This document shows, piece by piece, positions 3,534 to 12,659 of a stretch of 64,000 bases of DNA (positions are counted from its first letter, which is position 1; each line of letters begins with the position of its first letter). A program made the position numbers and the translations under genes. The notes beneath the pieces are model-generated. The model was not told the DNA's origin, searched no databases, and saw only the letters and a program-made list of their open reading frames with translations. The stretch comes from Roseinatronobacter sp. S2 (GTDB taxonomy: Bacteria; Pseudomonadota; Alphaproteobacteria; Rhodobacterales; Rhodobacteraceae), in NCBI RefSeq assembly GCF_029581395.1, contig NZ_CP121113.1, positions 2,104,001-2,168,000 on the forward strand, written 5' to 3'.

Positions 3534-5531
3534 ATGTTTCGCAAGATCCTGATTGCCAACCGTGGTGAAATTGCCTGCCGCGTCATCAAGACCGCCCGCA
3601 AAATGGGGATCGCGACCGTTGCAGTTTATTCCGATGCGGACCGCAACGCGCTGCATGTGCGCATGGCAGATGAAGCCATCAATATTGGCCCTGCGCCCGC
3701 AAACCAGTCCTATATTGTCATAGACAAGATACTGGATGCCGTGCGTCAGACAGGTGCGGAAGCGGTACATCCGGGCTATGGTTTTCTGTCCGAGAACATG
3801 AAATTCGCCGAAGCACTGGCGGCAGAAGGGGTTGCGTTCATCGGCCCGCCCGTGAACGCGATTGAAGCGATGGGCGACAAGATCACGTCAAAGAAGCTTG
3901 CGGCAGAAGCGGGCGTCAGCACTGTGCCTGGCTATATGGGGCTGATCTCGGACGCCGAAGATGCGGTGAAGATCAGCAACCAGGTCGGCTATCCGGTGAT
4001 GATCAAGGCCAGCGCGGGCGGCGGTGGCAAGGGCATGCGCATCGCATGGAATGATGCGGAAGCGCGCGAAGGGTTCCAGTCCTCCAAGAATGAAGCGGCG
4101 TCCAGTTTCGGCGACGACCGGATTTTCATTGAAAAATTCGTGACCCAGCCCCGCCATATCGAAATTCAGGTTCTGGCCGACAGCCATGGCAACACTGTCT
4201 ATTTGCATGAGCGTGAATGCTCTATCCAGCGCCGCAACCAGAAAGTGATTGAAGAAGCGCCATCCCCGTTTCTGGACGAATCCACCCGCCGCGCGATGGG
4301 TGAACAAGCCTGCGCCCTTGCGGCAGCGGTGGGCTATACATCGGCGGGAACGGTGGAATTTATCGTCGATGGCGAGAAGAATTTCTATTTCCTTGAAATG
4401 AACACCCGCCTTCAGGTGGAACACCCTGTCACCGAACTGATTACAGGGGTGGATCTGGTTGAACAGATGATCCGTGTGGCGGCTGGTGAAAAGCTGCCCT
4501 TCGCGCAATCCGACCTGAAGATCAACGGCTGGGCCATCGAATCGCGCCTGTATGCCGAAGACCCGTATCGCAACTTCCTGCCCTCGATCGGGCGGTTGAC
4601 GCGCTATCGCCCGCCTGCCGAAATCACCGCGCCGGACCGCACCGTGCGCAATGATACCGGCGTTTTTGAAGGCGGTGAAATCAGCATGTATTACGACCCG
4701 ATGATTGCGAAACTATGCACATGGGCACCGACGCGCGGGCAGGCGATTGACGAAATGCGCCTGGCGCTGGATGAATTCGAGTTGGAAGGGATCGGCCATA
4801 ACCTGCCCTTCCTGTCGGCCGTGATGGACCACCCGCGCTTCATTTCCGGCGAGATTACGACAGCCTTCATCGCCGAAGAATACCCCGACGGGTTCGAGGG
4901 GACGACACTGCCACGCGACCTGCTGCACCGCGTGGCCGCAAGTGCCTGCGCCATGAACCGCGTGGCCGAAATCCGGCGTGCGCGTATTTCCGGGCGCATG
5001 GACAACCATGAACGCGTTGTCGGCACCGATTGGGTGATCAATATTCAGGGCGAAAGCCTGAATGCCAGCATCGACGCCGACCGCGAAGGCGCAACTGTTT
5101 CGCTGGCAGGGCAGAGCTATCGCATCACATCCGACTGGCTGCCCGGCCAACCGCTTGCGCGGCTGAATGTCGATGGAACGCCCTTGGTGATGAAGATTGG
5201 CAAAATTCCCGGCGGGTTTCGCGCACGCCTGCGCGGGGCGGACCTGAAGATACATGTCTTCTCGCCCAGGCAGGCAAAACTGGCCGAGCTGATGCCGGAA
5301 AAACTGCCGCCCGACACATCGAAACTGCTGCTGTGCCCCATGCCCGGCATGGTGGTGTCCATTTCCGTCGAAGAAGGCGAGGAAGTCTATGAAGGCCAGA
5401 CACTTGCAACTGTGGAAGCCATGAAAATGGAAAACATCCTGCGGGCCGAACGCAAGGGAATTGTGTCGCGCATTAGCGTTCAGGCAGGCGCCTCTCTGGC
5501 TGTGGATGATGTGATCATGGAGTTTGAATGA
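3534..5531 (+). CDS. pccA: Propionyl/acetyl-CoA carboxylase alpha subunit (biotin carboxylase + BCCP)
   Basis: Biotin-carboxylating subunit that pairs with PccB. Order over 665 aa: biotin carboxylase N-domain from residue 1 (FRKILIANRGEIACRVI), ATP-grasp domain with the glycine-rich loop KASAGGGGKGMRI near residue 160 and the catalytic region EMNTRLQVEHPVTE near 290, a middle BT domain, and a C-terminal biotinyl domain with AMKM at 629-632 (biotinylated Lys631). Length is normal for PccA. AAGGAG lies just before the ATG. Its stop overlaps the start of the next gene (ATGA at 5528), so the membrane protein that follows is translationally coupled. An assignment to 3-methylcrotonyl-CoA carboxylase is less likely given pccB and the mutase nearby. 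Confidence 0.93.
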   Translation: MFRKILIANRGEIACRVIKTARKMGIATVAVYSDADRNALHVRMADEAINIGPAPANQSYIVIDKILDAVRQTGAEAVHPGYGFLSENMKFAEALAAEGVAFIGPPVNAIEAMGDKITSKKLAAEAGVSTVPGYMGLISDAEDAVKISNQVGYPVMIKASAGGGGKGMRIAWNDAEAREGFQSSKNEAASSFGDDRIFIEKFVTQPRHIEIQVLADSHGNTVYLHERECSIQRRNQKVIEEAPSPFLDESTRRAMGEQACALAAAVGYTSAGTVEFIVDGEKNFYFLEMNTRLQVEHPVTELITGVDLVEQMIRVAAGEKLPFAQSDLKINGWAIESRLYAEDPYRNFLPSIGRLTRYRPPAEITAPDRTVRNDTGVFEGGEISMYYDPMIAKLCTWAPTRGQAIDEMRLALDEFELEGIGHNLPFLSAVMDHPRFISGEITTAFIAEEYPDGFEGTTLPRDLLHRVAASACAMNRVAEIRRARISGRMDNHERVVGTDWVINIQGESLNASIDADREGATVSLAGQSYRITSDWLPGQPLARLNVDGTPLVMKIGKIPGGFRARLRGADLKIHVFSPRQAKLAELMPEKLPPDTSKLLLCPMPGMVVSISVEEGEEVYEGQTLATVEAMKMENILRAERKGIVSRISVQAGASLAVDDVIMEFE

Positions 5532-6641: not shown

Positions 6642-8777
6642 ATGAGCACGCCAAAGAGCCGTTGGGCCGAAATCGCCGCCAAGGAATTGAAGCACCGCCC
6701 CATTGAAAGCCTGACCTGGAACACATTGGAAGGTATCCCCGTTCAGCCGCTATATACGGCCGAAGACGTCGACGGGCTTGACCATCTGGGCACCATTCCG
6801 GGAGAAGCGCCTTATACCCGTGGGGTGCGCGCCACGATGTATACGGGCCGCGCATGGACCATACGGCAATATGCCGGGTTTTCCACCGCAGAGGATTCGA
6901 ACGCATTTTACCGCAAGGCCCTGGCGGCGGGCCAGCAAGGTGTGTCTGTCGCGTTTGATCTGGCAACCCATCGCGGCTATGACAGCGACCATCCGCGTGT
7001 GACGGGCGATGTGGGCAAGGCCGGTGTGGCGATTGATTCGGTCGAGGATATGAAAATCCTGTTTGACGGAATCCCGCTGGAAAAAGTCAGCGTTTCGATG
7101 ACAATGAACGGCGCGGTCATTCCCATTCTGGCCAGTTTCATTGTGACAGGTGAAGAACAGGGCGTGGACCGCAAACTGCTGTCGGGCACCATTCAGAATG
7201 ATATTCTGAAGGAATTCATGGTGCGCAACACCTATGTCTATCCGCCCGAACCCAGCATGCGCATCATTGCCGATATTATTGAATATACCACTGCCGAAAT
7301 GCCCAAATTCAACAGCATTTCGATTTCCGGCTATCATATGCAGGAAGCGGGCGCCAATCTGGTGCAGGAATTGGGCTTTACGCTGGCTGATGGCCGCGAA
7401 TATGTGCGCGCGGCCATTCATCGTGGCATGGATGTTGACCAGTTTGCGGGGCGCTTGTCGTTCTTTTTTGCCATAGGCACGAATTTCTTTATGGAAATCG
7501 CAAAATTGCGCGCAGCACGGCTGCTATGGTCGCGCGTGATGGCAGAGTTTAACCCCAAAGACCCGAAATCCAGCATGTTGCGCACGCATTGCCAGACATC
7601 TGGGGTCAGTTTGCAGGAACAAGACCCTTACAACAACGTCATCCGCACCGCCTATGAAGCGATGAGTGCGGTTCTTGGCGGCACGCAATCCTTGCACACA
7701 AACGCGCTGGACGAAGCGATTGCGCTGCCGACCGAATTCAGCGCCCGCATTGCGCGCAACACACAGCTTGTGCTGCAAGAAGAAACCGGCGTGACCAAGG
7801 TGGTCGATCCGCTGGCGGGCAGTTACTATATTGAAAAACTGACCCATGATCTGGCCGAGGCTGCCTGGACCTTGATGCAGGAAGTCGAGGAAATGGGCGG
7901 CATGACCAAAGCGGTTGCATCCGGTATGCCAAAACTGCGGATCGAGGAGACGGCAGCGAAGCGGCAGGCGATGATCGACCGCGGCGAGGAAGTGATCGTG
8001 GGCGTGAACAAATACCGCAAGGATTTTGAGGACCCGATTGATATTCTGGACATTGACAATGTGAAGGTGCGCGACAGTCAGATTGTGCGCCTGGAAAAGA
8101 TGCGGGCCACACGCGATCAGGCGGTTTGTGATGCTGCATTGAACGAATTGACCCGCCGCGCGCGCGAGGGGGGGAATCTTCTGGAAGCTGCCGTGGACGC
8201 CGCGCGCGCCCGCGCCTCTGTCGGGGAAATCAGCATGGCAATGGAAAAGATATTTGGCCGCCATCGTGCCGAGGTCAAAACACTGGCAGGTGTTTACGGT
8301 GCCGCCTATGAGGGGGATCAGGGCTTCGCGGCCATTCAGGCCGATGTCGAAGCCTTCGCCGAGCTTGAGGGGCGCCGCCCGCGTATGCTGGTCGTCAAGA
8401 TGGGGCAGGACGGCCATGATCGCGGCGCGAAGGTGATTGCCACTGCCTTCGCCGATATCGGGTTTGATGTCGATGTGGGACCGCTGTTTCAAACCCCCGC
8501 TGAAGCCGCACAGGACGCCATTGACAATGACGTGCATATCATTGGCATTTCCAGTCAGGCAGCGGGGCATAAGACCCTTGCACCACAACTGGTTCAGGCA
8601 CTGAATGACGCGGGCGCGGATGATATTCTTGTCATCTGTGGCGGCGTGATCCCGCAGCAGGATTACGAATTTCTGTATAATGCGGGGGTAAAGGCCATCT
8701 TTGGTCCCGGAACCAATATTCCGGACGCGGCGAAGAAAATTCTTGATCTGGTGCGCAAGGCGCGCGGGTTGTCGTAA
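6642..8777 (+). CDS. mcm: Methylmalonyl-CoA mutase, full-length single-chain
   Basis: Adenosylcobalamin-dependent isomerisation of (R)-methylmalonyl-CoA to succinyl-CoA. At 711 aa it has the catalytic (large-subunit type) TIM-barrel N-domain ([20 protein letters not shown] near residue 60; [17 protein letters not shown] near 105) and a C-terminal B12-binding domain with the D-x-H-x-x-G motif in [13 protein letters not shown] near residue 588, whose His displaces dimethylbenzimidazole. Single-chain length fits alphaproteobacterial enzymes. AAAGGAG lies 7 nt before the ATG. It continues the propionyl-CoA route begun by pccAB 1.1 kb upstream; the epimerase is not in the window. The alternatives ethylmalonyl-CoA mutase (meaA) and isobutyryl-CoA mutase differ in the barrel; I judge mcm more likely from context and length. 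Confidence 0.92.
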
Positions 8778-8846: not shown

Positions 8847-9248
8847 TCAGCTTGTGACTGCACCGCCCCGATCCTCAAGGCGCGCATCCACGGACAGGCG
8901 GCCTGCACCAGTGACAGAGAGCGCCAGATAACCCCCGGCAAGCGCCAGATTTTTCAGCAATTGTGTCATTTGCATCTGGTCTGCGGGGTCAAAATGATAC
9001 AGCAGCCCCGATACCACACAAAACGCCGCCAGCGCATAGGCTGCAAGCCGTGTCATCACGCCCACGATCAGCGCCGCACCGGCAATGATTTCGAACAGGA
9101 CCGCCGGCCATGCAAGCGCTGCCGGAATGCCTCCCGATGCCATATATTGACCAAAACCTGCAACATCGCCCAGTTTGCCAAGGCCGGAAACCAGAAATAG
9201 CGCGCCCAACAAAATGCGCGCAACAAGTAGAACTGTGGAGTGTGTCAT
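8847..9248 (-). CDS. DoxX family membrane protein
   Basis: A 133-aa inner-membrane protein with four hydrophobic helices and the DoxX-type N-terminus (VARILLGALFLVSGLGKLGD) followed by GFGQYMASGGIP. Family members are small membrane proteins linked to redox or thiol homeostasis in some bacteria, though the biochemical role is usually unknown. It is convergent with mcm and divergent from the AckA-PduL gene. No operon partner; the start at 9248 is the natural family start. Confidence 0.85.
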   Translation of the reverse strand: MTHSTVLLVARILLGALFLVSGLGKLGDVAGFGQYMASGGIPAALAWPAVLFEIIAGAALIVGVMTRLAAYALAAFCVVSGLLYHFDPADQMQMTQLLKNLALAGGYLALSVTGAGRLSVDARLEDRGGAVTS

Positions 9249-9373: not shown

Positions 9374-9392
9374 TTGCGATTGATCAATGCAA
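9374..9392. promoter_or_regulatory. Palindromic operator candidate upstream of ackA-pduL
   Basis: TTGC, one base, the perfect palindrome ATTGATCAAT, then GCAA: a near-symmetric 19-nt element 57 nt before the start codon. Its size and symmetry suit a dimeric regulator (for example an FNR/CRP-like or LysR/GntR protein). The core resembles the FNR consensus half TTGAT-N4-ATCAA only loosely, because the halves abut. Confidence 0.4.
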
Positions 9393-9449: not shown

Positions 9450-11264
9450 ATGCGTATCATTGTCTTCAATGCAGGCAGTTCATCCCTGAAATTCGGGGTT
9501 TTCGATCTGAATGCGGGCGACACATTGGACAAGGCGCAGCATGTGTTCAAAGGCAGTTTTGACAGGTTTGGCCCCGATGGCTGCGATTATCAGCATGGCA
9601 CGCAGCAGCCAGTGGTCGAACGCGCGCCTTATACCAGCCTTGCTGCCGCCACGCGCGCGGTCCCCGACCTGCTGTCCGCTGCGGGCGTGGGCGCAATAGA
9701 CGCCGTCGGCCACCGGATCGCGCATGGCGGGGCGTGTTTTGATGGGGCGACCGTGCTGAATGACACAACGCTTGCCCGGATTGACGCGCTGACCCCGCTT
9801 GCCCCCTTGCACAACCCCGCCAATCTGGAAGCTGTGCAAGTGGCGCGGCAGGTCTGGCCCGATCTGGCGCAATGGGCGGTTTTCGACACGGCCTTCCACC
9901 TGTCCAACCCGGCCCGCGCCAGCACCTATGCCGTGCCGAAGGATTGGCGCGACCGCGGGCTGCGCCGTTACGGGTTCCACGGCACATCGCATAAATATGT
10001 GGCCCATCGCGCGGCTGAAGAACTTGGGCAGCGCTTGCGCGACCTGCGCCTGATAAGCCTGCATCTGGGCAATGGGGCGAGCGCCTGCGCGATTGCGGGC
10101 GGGGTCAGCATCGACAGTTCCATGGGGATGACACCCATGGAAGGGCTGGTCATGGGCACGCGTTCGGGCGATGTGGATCCCGGCCTGTTCGGGTATGTGC
10201 ACCGCGAACTGGGGCTTGATATTGCGCAGATCGAAGATACGCTGAACCGCCATAGCGGCTTGCTTGGGCTGACCGGATCATCGGATATGCGCGATGTCGA
10301 GGCGCGCGCCGCACAGGGCGACGCGGATGCGCAGCTTGCGATTCATATCTATGCATACCGCGCGCGCAAGTACATCGGGGCCTATGCGGCGGCCATGGGC
10401 GGGCTGGATGCGTTGGTGTTTACCGGCGGCATTGGCGAAAACTCCCCCTCGATGCGCAGGCGTATCTGTGACGGGTTGGGGTTCATGGGCATCTTGCTGG
10501 ACCATGACCGGAACATGCAGGTCGATCTGGGCGCACGCGCGGCACCGCAAATTCAGGCCTATGGCGCACGGGTCAATGTGCTGGTCACCGAAACGGCCGA
10601 GCAGTTGATGATAGCCCGTGAAGTTGTTGTGGCCGCCAACCGGTCCAGGGGGCAGGGCGCGCGCATTCCGGTTGCGGTATCGGCGCGACATGTGCATTTG
10701 TGCCGCAAGGCTGTGGATGCGCTGTTCGGGCCGGGGTATGAGCTGACGCCCGACAAGCCCTTGCGCCAGCAAGGCCATTGGGCAGCAGCGGAACGCGTTG
10801 CACTGCACGGCCCGAAAGGCACAATTCGCAATGTGGCCATCCTTGGTCCGCTGCGCGACCGCACCCAGATCGAAGTGTCGCGCACTGACAGTTTTGCGCT
10901 GGGTCTGGACGCGCCGGTTCGCCAAAGCGGCAAACTTGACGGCACACCCCAGATCCGGCTCTCCGGCCCTATGGGCGAGATGGACAGCGACGGGCTTATC
11001 ATTGCATCGCGTCATATCCATATGGCGCCTGAAGATGCGGCCGGCATGGGGTTGGCCGATGGCGATATGGTTGATGTCAAGCTGGACGCGACAGGGCGTG
11101 ATCTGACATTTACCCGCGTGCTTGTGCGTGTATCCGACAATGCCTTCACGGAAATGCATATCGACACGGACGAGGCCAATGCCGCCGGAATTTCGGGCGA
11201 AGGCGACGGTCAAATTTCAGCCGCCGCCACATTGGAACCCGCGTTGAGTAACCCCCAAGCCTGA
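9450..11264 (+). CDS. Acetate/propionate kinase fused to PduL-type phosphotransacylase
   Basis: A 604-aa two-domain enzyme. Residues ~1-395 are a complete acetate kinase (NAGSSSLKF at the N-terminus, FDTAFH near 145, RRYGFHGTSHKYV near 172, HLGNGAS near 204, TGGIGENS near 325). Residues ~400-600 are a PduL-like phosphate acyltransferase with both zinc-binding His pairs, ARHVHL near 413 and SRHIHM near 521, plus GPGYELTPDKPL and LGPLRDRTQIEVSR. Together they would catalyse acyl-phosphate formation from acid plus ATP and its conversion to acyl-CoA, channelled within one chain. The kinase and PduL are normally separate genes. Proximity to mcm and pcc suggests acetate or propionate activation or overflow. 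One uninterrupted frame with no internal start needed. Confidence 0.92.
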   Translation: MRIIVFNAGSSSLKFGVFDLNAGDTLDKAQHVFKGSFDRFGPDGCDYQHGTQQPVVERAPYTSLAAATRAVPDLLSAAGVGAIDAVGHRIAHGGACFDGATVLNDTTLARIDALTPLAPLHNPANLEAVQVARQVWPDLAQWAVFDTAFHLSNPARASTYAVPKDWRDRGLRRYGFHGTSHKYVAHRAAEELGQRLRDLRLISLHLGNGASACAIAGGVSIDSSMGMTPMEGLVMGTRSGDVDPGLFGYVHRELGLDIAQIEDTLNRHSGLLGLTGSSDMRDVEARAAQGDADAQLAIHIYAYRARKYIGAYAAAMGGLDALVFTGGIGENSPSMRRRICDGLGFMGILLDHDRNMQVDLGARAAPQIQAYGARVNVLVTETAEQLMIAREVVVAANRSRGQGARIPVAVSARHVHLCRKAVDALFGPGYELTPDKPLRQQGHWAAAERVALHGPKGTIRNVAILGPLRDRTQIEVSRTDSFALGLDAPVRQSGKLDGTPQIRLSGPMGEMDSDGLIIASRHIHMAPEDAAGMGLADGDMVDVKLDATGRDLTFTRVLVRVSDNAFTEMHIDTDEANAAGISGEGDGQISAAATLEPALSNPQA

Positions 11265-11525: not shown

Positions 11526-12659
11526 CTAAACGTCCTCCTCCTCAAGGGATTGAAGCGTGATGGTGCCTGCGTCAATCATGCCGCGAACTGACCCCATCAC
11601 CCGTGCCATGATTTCATCTTTTTGTTTGGCCGTCGGAACGGGTAGGGCGGTTGCATCCTCGCGCATGGTATCGGCAACGCGTTTGGACATATTGGACAGC
11701 AGAAATTCCAGTGTTGGCTGGTCTTCCGGCGTGTTTGCCGCAATGATGAACATCATGTCATCAGATGGCACTTCACGCATCAGCACCGGCACATCGCGCG
11801 GTGTGATCCGCGCCGGAATATCCTGAAACGTGAAGATGGACTTGCGCACCCCGGTTGCGAACCCCTGATCCAGATTGTCCAACCCTGCAAGAAGCCTGTC
11901 GCGCAACGCGGTCGGGGAGGAATTGAGTATTTCACCAACGCGCTTGGTCGATGGTTTGGAAAATGCGCGCAAGGGCTTGTCGGTGACCTGCTGTGCCAGT
12001 GCGATGCCAATGCGCGCCACCGTATCGGGGGCAATATCTTCGGTCTTTGCGACAGATATGGCCAAGGCTTGTGCCAGATCAGGGGCCATCTGGGACAACA
12101 ATCCCGCTGCCTTGTCGATGCTGAGTTTCGAGAGCACGACCGCGCCCACGACGGTGCTTTCAGCCTCCAGCAAGGGCAAAAGGTCGGTGTCGGGCGCCGC
12201 TTCAAGATCAGCCCATGGATCACGCCCGTTCGCGCCGCGCGCCAGCATCCTTAACTGCTGGGTGGCCATCGCATCCAGCCGCCCGTCCAGCAGCGACAGC
12301 GCGCCATCCAGCCCGTCCGGAAAGGAAAGCCCGACCTGTTCCAGCATTTCCACATACTCGGACACAACGGCATTCATTGTGGTGCGGTCAATCAGCCGCA
12401 TTTCCCCCATTGTGCGGGTCAGGTTTTCCTGCATGCGCGCGGACAGGGCGGAAAGCTGCAAATCCACCCCTTCGGCAACCAAGACCCGCACGATGATTGC
12501 GGCCTTTTGTATGCCGCTAAGATGGTCGGTTCCGGTGGGGGCCGCGCGATGCACCTCATCCACGTCCGGACCCGGAAAATTCATACTGTCTGCCATTGCA
12601 TTGAAAGGCATCATCGCGGCATCGGTCATTTCGCCAAACCGTTTGCAGACAGGGTCCAT
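11526..12659 (-). CDS. fliG: FliG-like flagellar motor switch protein, solitary
   Basis: A 377-aa protein resembling FliG, the rotor protein that couples MotA/MotB torque to the C-ring and switches direction. Visible are the N-terminal KAAIIVRVL segment with repeated MA-x-QLRML-type helices (middle domain) and a C-terminal armadillo region with TFQDIPARITPRDVPVLMREV and a run of acidic/basic residues near 300. The N-terminal ~30 residues are a non-conserved acidic lead; ATG at 12629 is an alternative start. Unusually, no other flagellar gene is adjacent, so this is either a displaced gene or a second FliG paralogue. Conservation looks looser than in core FliG. Confidence 0.72.
   Translation of the reverse strand: MDPVCKRFGEMTDAAMMPFNAMADSMNFPGPDVDEVHRAAPTGTDHLSGIQKAAIIVRVLVAEGVDLQLSALSARMQENLTRTMGEMRLIDRTTMNAVVSEYVEMLEQVGLSFPDGLDGALSLLDGRLDAMATQQLRMLARGANGRDPWADLEAAPDTDLLPLLEAESTVVGAVVLSKLSIDKAAGLLSQMAPDLAQALAISVAKTEDIAPDTVARIGIALAQQVTDKPLRAFSKPSTKRVGEILNSSPTALRDRLLAGLDNLDQGFATGVRKSIFTFQDIPARITPRDVPVLMREVPSDDMMFIIAANTPEDQPTLEFLLSNMSKRVADTMREDATALPVPTAKQKDEIMARVMGSVRGMIDAGTITLQSLEEEDV

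Follow-up and report, generated by a model that had tools for sequence, protein, structure and literature searches.

A fused acetokinase-PduL protein of Roseinatronobacter sp. S2 as a candidate stand-in for the Pta and AckA pair

The 64,000-nucleotide stretch of Roseinatronobacter sp. S2 DNA analyzed here (the window; G000:C1:2104001-2168000, where G numbers denote genomes, G000 being that of the window, and L numbers denote loci) encodes a 604-residue protein in which an acetate/propionate kinase is fused to a PduL phosphotransacylase (9450..11264, forward strand; open reading frame and profile matches). From sequence comparisons, we consider it reasonably probable that this protein is a bifunctional, reversible enzyme that stands in for the Pta and AckA pair in G000. 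The C-terminal di-zinc PduL domain would interconvert acyl-CoA plus phosphate and acyl-phosphate plus CoA, while the N-terminal acetokinase domain would interconvert acyl-phosphate plus ADP and acid plus ATP. Both halves are predicted to be catalytically active. The main substrate would be acetate, with propionate also accepted on the basis of an alanine in the acid pocket. The main direction is probably from acyl-CoA to acid and ATP when respiration is limited, as an FNR-like box upstream of the gene suggests; the reverse direction, acid activation, would be possible at high acid concentration.

The reading frame starts with ATG and contains no internal stop codon. Its acetokinase domain (PF00871) covers residues 3 to 390 (9456..10619, forward strand; E = 4e-124, 414.7 bits against a cutoff of 22), and its PduL/PTAC domain (PF06130) covers residues 407 to 581 (10668..11192, forward strand; E = 5.7e-69, 231.8 bits against a cutoff of 25). 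Only a short linker, residues 391 to 406 (10620..10667, forward strand), separates the two matches. The NCBIfam models TIGR00016 (ackA; 399.6 bits, cutoff of 293.4) and NF011652 (phosphate propanoyltransferase; 236.4 bits, cutoff of 209) matched as well. With both domains above the curated Pfam and NCBIfam cutoffs, the observation of an earlier note on this DNA that a whole acetate kinase and a whole PduL share one frame is borne out, and its proposal that one polypeptide would carry two consecutive reactions finds support at the level of sequence. Among the 22 distinct PDB sequences matched by the fusion, 21 were kinases of acetate, propionate, or butyrate, and the other was a PduL (5cuo/5cup); none of the matched chains spanned both halves.

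A search of a species-genome collection with the full protein gave at least 575 confirmed candidates, of which the best 80 were kept as loci. The query was matched from residue 1 to 3 through residue 575 or beyond in 77 of these; the exceptions are L035 and L050, which end at contig edges, and L076, whose best segment starts at residue 71. In L072, from Micavibrio, the open reading frame list shows the fusion frame to be broken in the PduL half. The earlier note had named a stop codon or indel between the domains as what would undo the fusion. Instead, the frame is uninterrupted over its 604 residues, and because its architecture recurs in L009 (97% identical) and in the majority of the remaining 79 loci, the fusion is no chance join of one assembly. 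Both Pfam families were matched by 33/33 aligned fusions. The spacing between kinase and PduL motifs, measured with a motif pattern, was 20 to 25 residues in 60 of the 61 measurable loci (of 81); in the exception, L052, the pattern probably overlooked a motif. Six relatives carry long in-frame upstream extensions, and a triple fusion was considered for them. The extensions matched no Pfam family, the single weak match, below cutoff, being located within a PduL half, and the idea was rejected.

Residues were compared across 81 rows: 78 from the window and the 80 loci (L035, L050, and L072 excluded), plus L109, L114, and L115. Near-duplicates were kept among them (the window and L009, L043 and L115, L062 and L079). 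Residue roles were taken from passages of PMC4784909 and PMC3475010. According to the former, the solved PduL binds Zn1 through His48, His50, and Glu109 and Zn2 through His157, His159, and His204, with phosphate positioned by Arg103 and Ser127. Alignment places the zinc ligands of the fusion at H414, H416, E475, H522, H524, and H570 and its phosphate contacts at R469 and S493. The two HxH pairs of PduL that had been reported as intact are so (H414/H416 and H522/H524), and all six ligands, R469, and S493 are identical in 81/81 rows. The wider PduL set of S45, H48, H50, Q74, L99, R103, Q107, E109, S127, H157, H159, R194, H204, and N211 (solved-PduL numbering) is equally invariant, as are N7, K14, R89, H121, D146, H177, N208, R238, and E384 of the kinase half. 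The AckA catalytic set, Asn7, Arg91, His180, Arg241, and Glu384 in Methanosarcina thermophila numbering, corresponds to N7, R89, H177, R238, and E384 of the fusion. This invariance of the PduL metal ligands, the phosphate contacts, and the listed AckA positions speaks against a rival explanation in which one half has lost catalysis and acts as a sensor or regulator, in analogy to the malic enzyme MaeB, whose PTA domain is said to be nonfunctional. AckA-only and PduL-only members within the fusion clades (see below) speak for such a loss, which we nonetheless judge very unlikely.

The proposal that the fusion stands in for Pta and AckA draws on the enzyme complement of the genome, in which no AckA or PduL other than the fusion was found. 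Searches for the XFP, PTA_PTB, and bacterial microcompartment (BMC) families covered 54 genomes (47 of the genomes of the 80 loci and seven others). The fusion is present in 53 of them, with a broken copy in L072; the exception is G030, whose PduL stands alone. The PTA_PTB search of G000 returned two proteins, both with malic-enzyme domains, and found no stand-alone Pta. A stand-alone Pta was considered as a second route in G000 and rejected, since both PTA_PTB matches are malic enzymes.

PduL is known from microcompartments, as the earlier note pointed out. That association does not extend to the present genomes, in which PduL without shell genes is the rule: a BMC shell match was found in 1/54 genomes and none in G000, while the E. 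coli and Synechococcus controls matched. A role as microcompartment cargo, the classical one for PduL, would fit the homology of the fusion's PduL domain to BMC-associated PduL. However, the PduL N terminus, the site of the encapsulation peptide, is here joined to the kinase, and with the shell result the cargo role is refuted at the sensitivity of the search; we give it virtually no weight.

Another possible source of acyl-phosphate is phosphoketolase. The fusion would then split XFP-made acetyl-phosphate, yielding acetyl-CoA on the one hand and acetate plus ATP on the other. In 6/81 loci, a gene of the XFP cluster (scanned in L046) is located no more than 5 kb from the fusion; here, as in all neighborhood counts below, the 81 are the window and the best 80 loci. 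XFP_N gave any match in 12/54 genomes and a full-length match in 8/54, the genome of L063 having a weak match only. Such coupling is likely true for the rhizobial, Pseudohongiella, and related loci. For G000, a phosphoketolase-fed role is excluded at search sensitivity, as neither this genome nor the other six same-family genomes of the search set had an XFP match, and as an account of the window protein it is highly improbable. Low-oxygen clusters in such bacteria typically contain fabI, P-type ATPases, universal stress proteins, polyhydroxybutyrate (PHB) genes, and Pta-AckA. In the open-access literature, we found no paper on a low-oxygen cluster of phosphoketolase, acetate kinase, and PHB genes.

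A further alternative reverses the direction, with the fusion activating propionate (or acetate) through acid + ATP + CoA to acyl-CoA and feeding an adjacent pcc/mcm route. The earlier note had advanced propionate entry by this route and had placed mcm 0.7 kb from the fusion. The distance is correct, as the methylmalonyl-CoA mutase gene occupies 6642..8777 on the forward strand, upstream of the fusion (open reading frame and Pfam/NCBIfam matches). Farther upstream lie open reading frames at 275-1855 and 3534-5531, which we take from their sequences to be pccB and pccA, respectively. Between mcm and the fusion, the other strand carries a DoxX-like gene (8847..9248, reverse strand; open reading frame and family scan), so a shared operon is unlikely. 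Moreover, mcm neighbors the fusion in only 2/81 loci, the window and the 97% identical L009, although short contigs may hide more. In G000, the searches for Acs and PrpE, which covered 14 genomes, found a canonical acetyl-CoA synthetase (Acs; 1021.8 bits, cutoff of 724.95) and a 639-residue PrpE-like ligase. Among NCBIfam models, this ligase scored best with propionate--CoA ligase, at 739.5 bits, short of the cutoff of 955.

The acid pocket is the remaining evidence for propionate. In Salmonella AckA, the extra methyl group of modeled propionate contacts Val93 (passages of PMC3475010). The equivalent residue is alanine in the fusion, in E. coli and Salmonella TdcD, and in 7fj7 ("probable propionate kinase"), and it is valine in the AckA proteins of E. 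coli and Thermotoga maritima. Among the 81 fusion rows, 36 have alanine (window included), 44 have valine, and one has threonine, while 31/33 stand-alone kinases have valine. Where an origin is stated, the 36 alanine-bearing fusions all come from Pseudomonadota. Alanine at this position is presumably a marker of propionate use, and the fusion enzyme of the window may handle propionate better than AckA proteins typically do, as judged from one position and few references. On the kinase tree, however, this residue, which is A, V, or T, switches at least 10 times, and four reference proteins are few for such a marker. The TdcD equivalog NF009045 scored the fusion at 334.6 bits, below its cutoff of 580. 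Thus, the alanine speaks for the proposed propionate link, while the rarity of mcm adjacency and the presence of Acs and a PrpE-like ligase speak against it, and we regard propionate activation as the main role as unlikely.

A separate observation concerns the ligase and one of the malic enzymes. In G000, the gene for the PrpE-like acyl-CoA ligase adjoins that for a PTA_PTB-tailed malic enzyme (G000:C1:1551751-1553619 and 1553821-1556100). In G179, G222, G248, G249, G251, G255, and G264, which also carry the fusion, a PTA_PTB match and a PrpE-like match share a contig at a distance of about 3 kb or less.

For the reversible enzyme running mainly toward acid and ATP, the upstream region offers a regulatory clue. 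A putative FNR-like box, TTGCG-ATTG-ATCAA, is located 76 bases 5' of the start codon (9374..9387, forward strand; two mismatches). Using the 14-base pattern TTGAT-N4-ATCAA with up to two mismatches in the zone from -130 to -30, we found a box in 8/16 close loci, 7 of the 8 being at -66 to -76; the window box is at -76, and those of L011, L012, L014, L015, L016, and L017 are at -66 to -71. Among named carriers of the fusion, Pararhodobacter sp. CCB-MM2 and Rhodobacter sp. NTK016B have a box-like site; none with up to two mismatches was found in Roseibaca ekhonensis CECT 7235 or Gemmobacter megaterium DSM 26375. In the same loci, 4/127 upstream regions of other predicted genes had a box, and the average in simple shuffles of the upstream regions was 0.47 of 16. 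Across all loci, the zone contained a box in 14/79 cases versus 34/603 controls (Fisher P = 0.0005, uncorrected for kinship). A scan for palindromes of 16 to 30 bases upstream of the fusion found none.

Several observations weigh against the picture drawn so far. When the whole 200 upstream bases are considered, the contrast is smaller (17/80 versus 63/600). The window box itself has 2 mismatches of 10, and half of the close loci (8/16) are without a box. Because the motif was first seen by eye, with motif and zone chosen after the sequences had been viewed, and because the loci are related, FNR-like low-oxygen control of the fusion is a lead, not proof. Conservation is also incomplete at some sites: kinase R281 is kept in 80/81 fusions, at PduL Gln/Glu77 the window has His and just 38/81 fusions have Gln, and the CoA-contacting PduL K70 is Lys in 52/81, the window included. 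PTA_PTB matches occurred in 45/54 genomes, classified for G000 alone, and some shorter matches elsewhere may represent genuine Pta, so replacement of Pta by the fusion need not be general. Finally, since an AckA-only protein (G199) and a PduL-only protein (L008) nest within fusion clades, the fused state is dispensable.

These last cases come from quick trees with SH-aLRT branch support alone and with small, partly score-picked stand-alone sets of 11 PduL and 33 AckA rows, 24 of the latter being the top-scoring own-family loci from 167 genomes with an AckA match. The tree of PduL halves (81 fusions and 11 stand-alone proteins) needs two label changes. The fusions group together except that PduL-only L008, from the same-family genome G030, is nested inside, probably as a later split. 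The kinase tree (81 fusions and 33 stand-alone proteins) needs four changes, with stand-alone L129 (genome G199) and L160 (an Acidovorax plasmid) inside the fusion clade. The AckA-only protein of G199 (L172 4905-6101) has 398 residues and no PduL part, and it and the PduL-only member of G030 are probable losses or splits of a fused gene. Fusion L109 and a stand-alone kinase form a long-branched group; this grouping and the placement of L129 and L160 inside the clade mean that there may have been a second, independent fusion event. Of the 24 sampled own-family stand-alone kinases, 23 form a separate, supported clade. The window fusion is therefore more likely to have arrived from outside than to be the family's usual AckA with an added domain.

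Fusions with a stated origin span five phyla, Pseudomonadota, Bacteroidota, Myxococcota, Acidobacteriota, and Bdellovibrionota, and the pseudomonadotal carriers include Alphaproteobacteria, Gammaproteobacteria, and Burkholderiaceae. Within the genome draws, which overlap, the fusion is sparse. In its own family, AckA of any kind was found in 167/248 genomes and PduL in 7/248, six of these fused. PduL was found in 3/385 genomes of the class draw (one below cutoff) and in 7/398 of the phylum draw (three stand-alone, all in one family, f199). A draw from the class of a Lewinella genome gave PduL in 4/198 genomes, two being distant stand-alone proteins, and one genome, G1073, having a 600-residue open frame. 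The novelty that the earlier note had attached to the fusion does not survive this spread and the mention of a PduL-Ack fusion in passages of PMC4784909. Two loci, L062 and L079, are closely related fusion copies on one contig of a Myxococcales metagenome-assembled genome (JAEUJZ010000127.1). On plasmid pSmeRU11d of Sinorhizobium meliloti RU11/001 (L122 8001-9798), the record divides the fusion into two successive coding sequences, surrounded by transposase genes, and the fusion is apparently broken within the PduL half.

The surroundings of the fusion differ between lineages. In the window, its convergent downstream neighbor encodes a FliG-like protein (11526..12659, reverse strand; open reading frame and family scan), and this cluster, scanned in the window, occurs near the fusion in 10/81 loci. 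A downstream cluster that we presume from its sequence to be purB-like is also found in 10/81 loci, including the window and related Rhodobacteraceae, and a phosphoglucomutase cluster (scanned in L018) lies upstream in 8/81 loci, in related Rhodobacteraceae. A cation P-type ATPase gene (scanned in L072) is within 5 kb in 13/81 loci. In L029, L037, L043, L047, L048, and L072, it is directly upstream and codirectional, with a 4-base stop/start overlap with the fusion, and in L045, the gap is 0. The overlap suggests translational coupling of an ATP-driven pump with what would be an ATP-making enzyme.

Plasmids carry further arrangements. The fusion directly follows fabI on a Polaromonas plasmid, is near a phasin gene on a Paracoccus plasmid, and is beside a divergent P-type ATPase gene on the S. 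meliloti plasmid. A Sphingomonas plasmid has a gene for an enoyl-CoA hydratase/phosphate acetyltransferase and, after it, one for a separate acetate/propionate kinase. The Polaromonas and Sphingomonas arrangements are consistent with a Pta-plus-AckA job for the fusion. A more ambitious synthesis, which we put forward as speculative and doubtful, would have an ATP-conserving acetokinase-PduL unit spreading between phyla and channeling acyl-phosphate from one active site to the other. In Rhodobacteraceae, this unit would have FNR-type low-oxygen control and a propionate-widened pocket, while in several relatives it would be coupled to a cation P-type ATPase, the pump being coproduced with the ATP-making enzyme.

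The fusion matters for genome interpretation and for enzymology. The Polaromonas and Paracoccus plasmid records annotate it, as a single coding sequence, only as an "acetate/propionate family kinase." Because of this label, the phosphotransacylase may be missed, and readers of a genome may wrongly judge the step to be lacking. The fusion also offers a natural system in which to ask whether acyl-phosphate, which in addition acetylates proteins and supplies response regulators, is channeled when AckA and a transacylase are joined.

This kind of PduL-Ack fusion has been known since 2016, when Erbilgin et al. noted PduL fused to Ack and proposed channeling (passages of PMC4784909), as the earlier note also suggested. 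The same passages report multidomain proteins that bear the two-part PF06130 signature, lack an encapsulation peptide, and are for the most part labeled acetate kinases, and they propose PduL as a replacement for Pta; they are without the distribution, a tree, or the biochemistry of the fusions. The passages of PMC10823632 consulted make no statement on an AckA-PduL fusion, and we found no biochemical characterization of the fused form in the open-access literature, most subscription journals being outside its scope. Like the proteins of Erbilgin et al., the window fusion has both domains in one uninterrupted polypeptide. The residues before its PduL domain form the short linker to the kinase, a dedicated search for an encapsulation peptide not having been made. 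It differs from those proteins in its FNR-like upstream box and its alanine acid pocket, and the close named relatives of its genome are Rhodobacteraceae (Paracoccaceae). BMC-associated PduL/EutD (PF06130; PDB entry 5cuo) belongs to the same family, with all zinc ligands conserved, but is stand-alone and accompanied by an encapsulation peptide and shell genes (passages of PMC4784909). The E. coli ackA-pta genes are adjacent and specify the same two reactions, although in two polypeptides and with a Pta (PF01515) unrelated in sequence to PduL. The propionate kinases TdcD and PduW share the acetokinase family, and TdcD shares the alanine at the Val93 position; TdcD, however, is unfused, and the window fusion falls below the cutoff of the TdcD-type model. 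The bifunctional enoyl-CoA hydratase/phosphate acetyltransferase of Sphingomonas likewise pairs a fused transacetylase with an acetate/propionate kinase, but there the fusion partner is a different one, the transacetylase is, by name, of the Pta type, and the kinase is separate.
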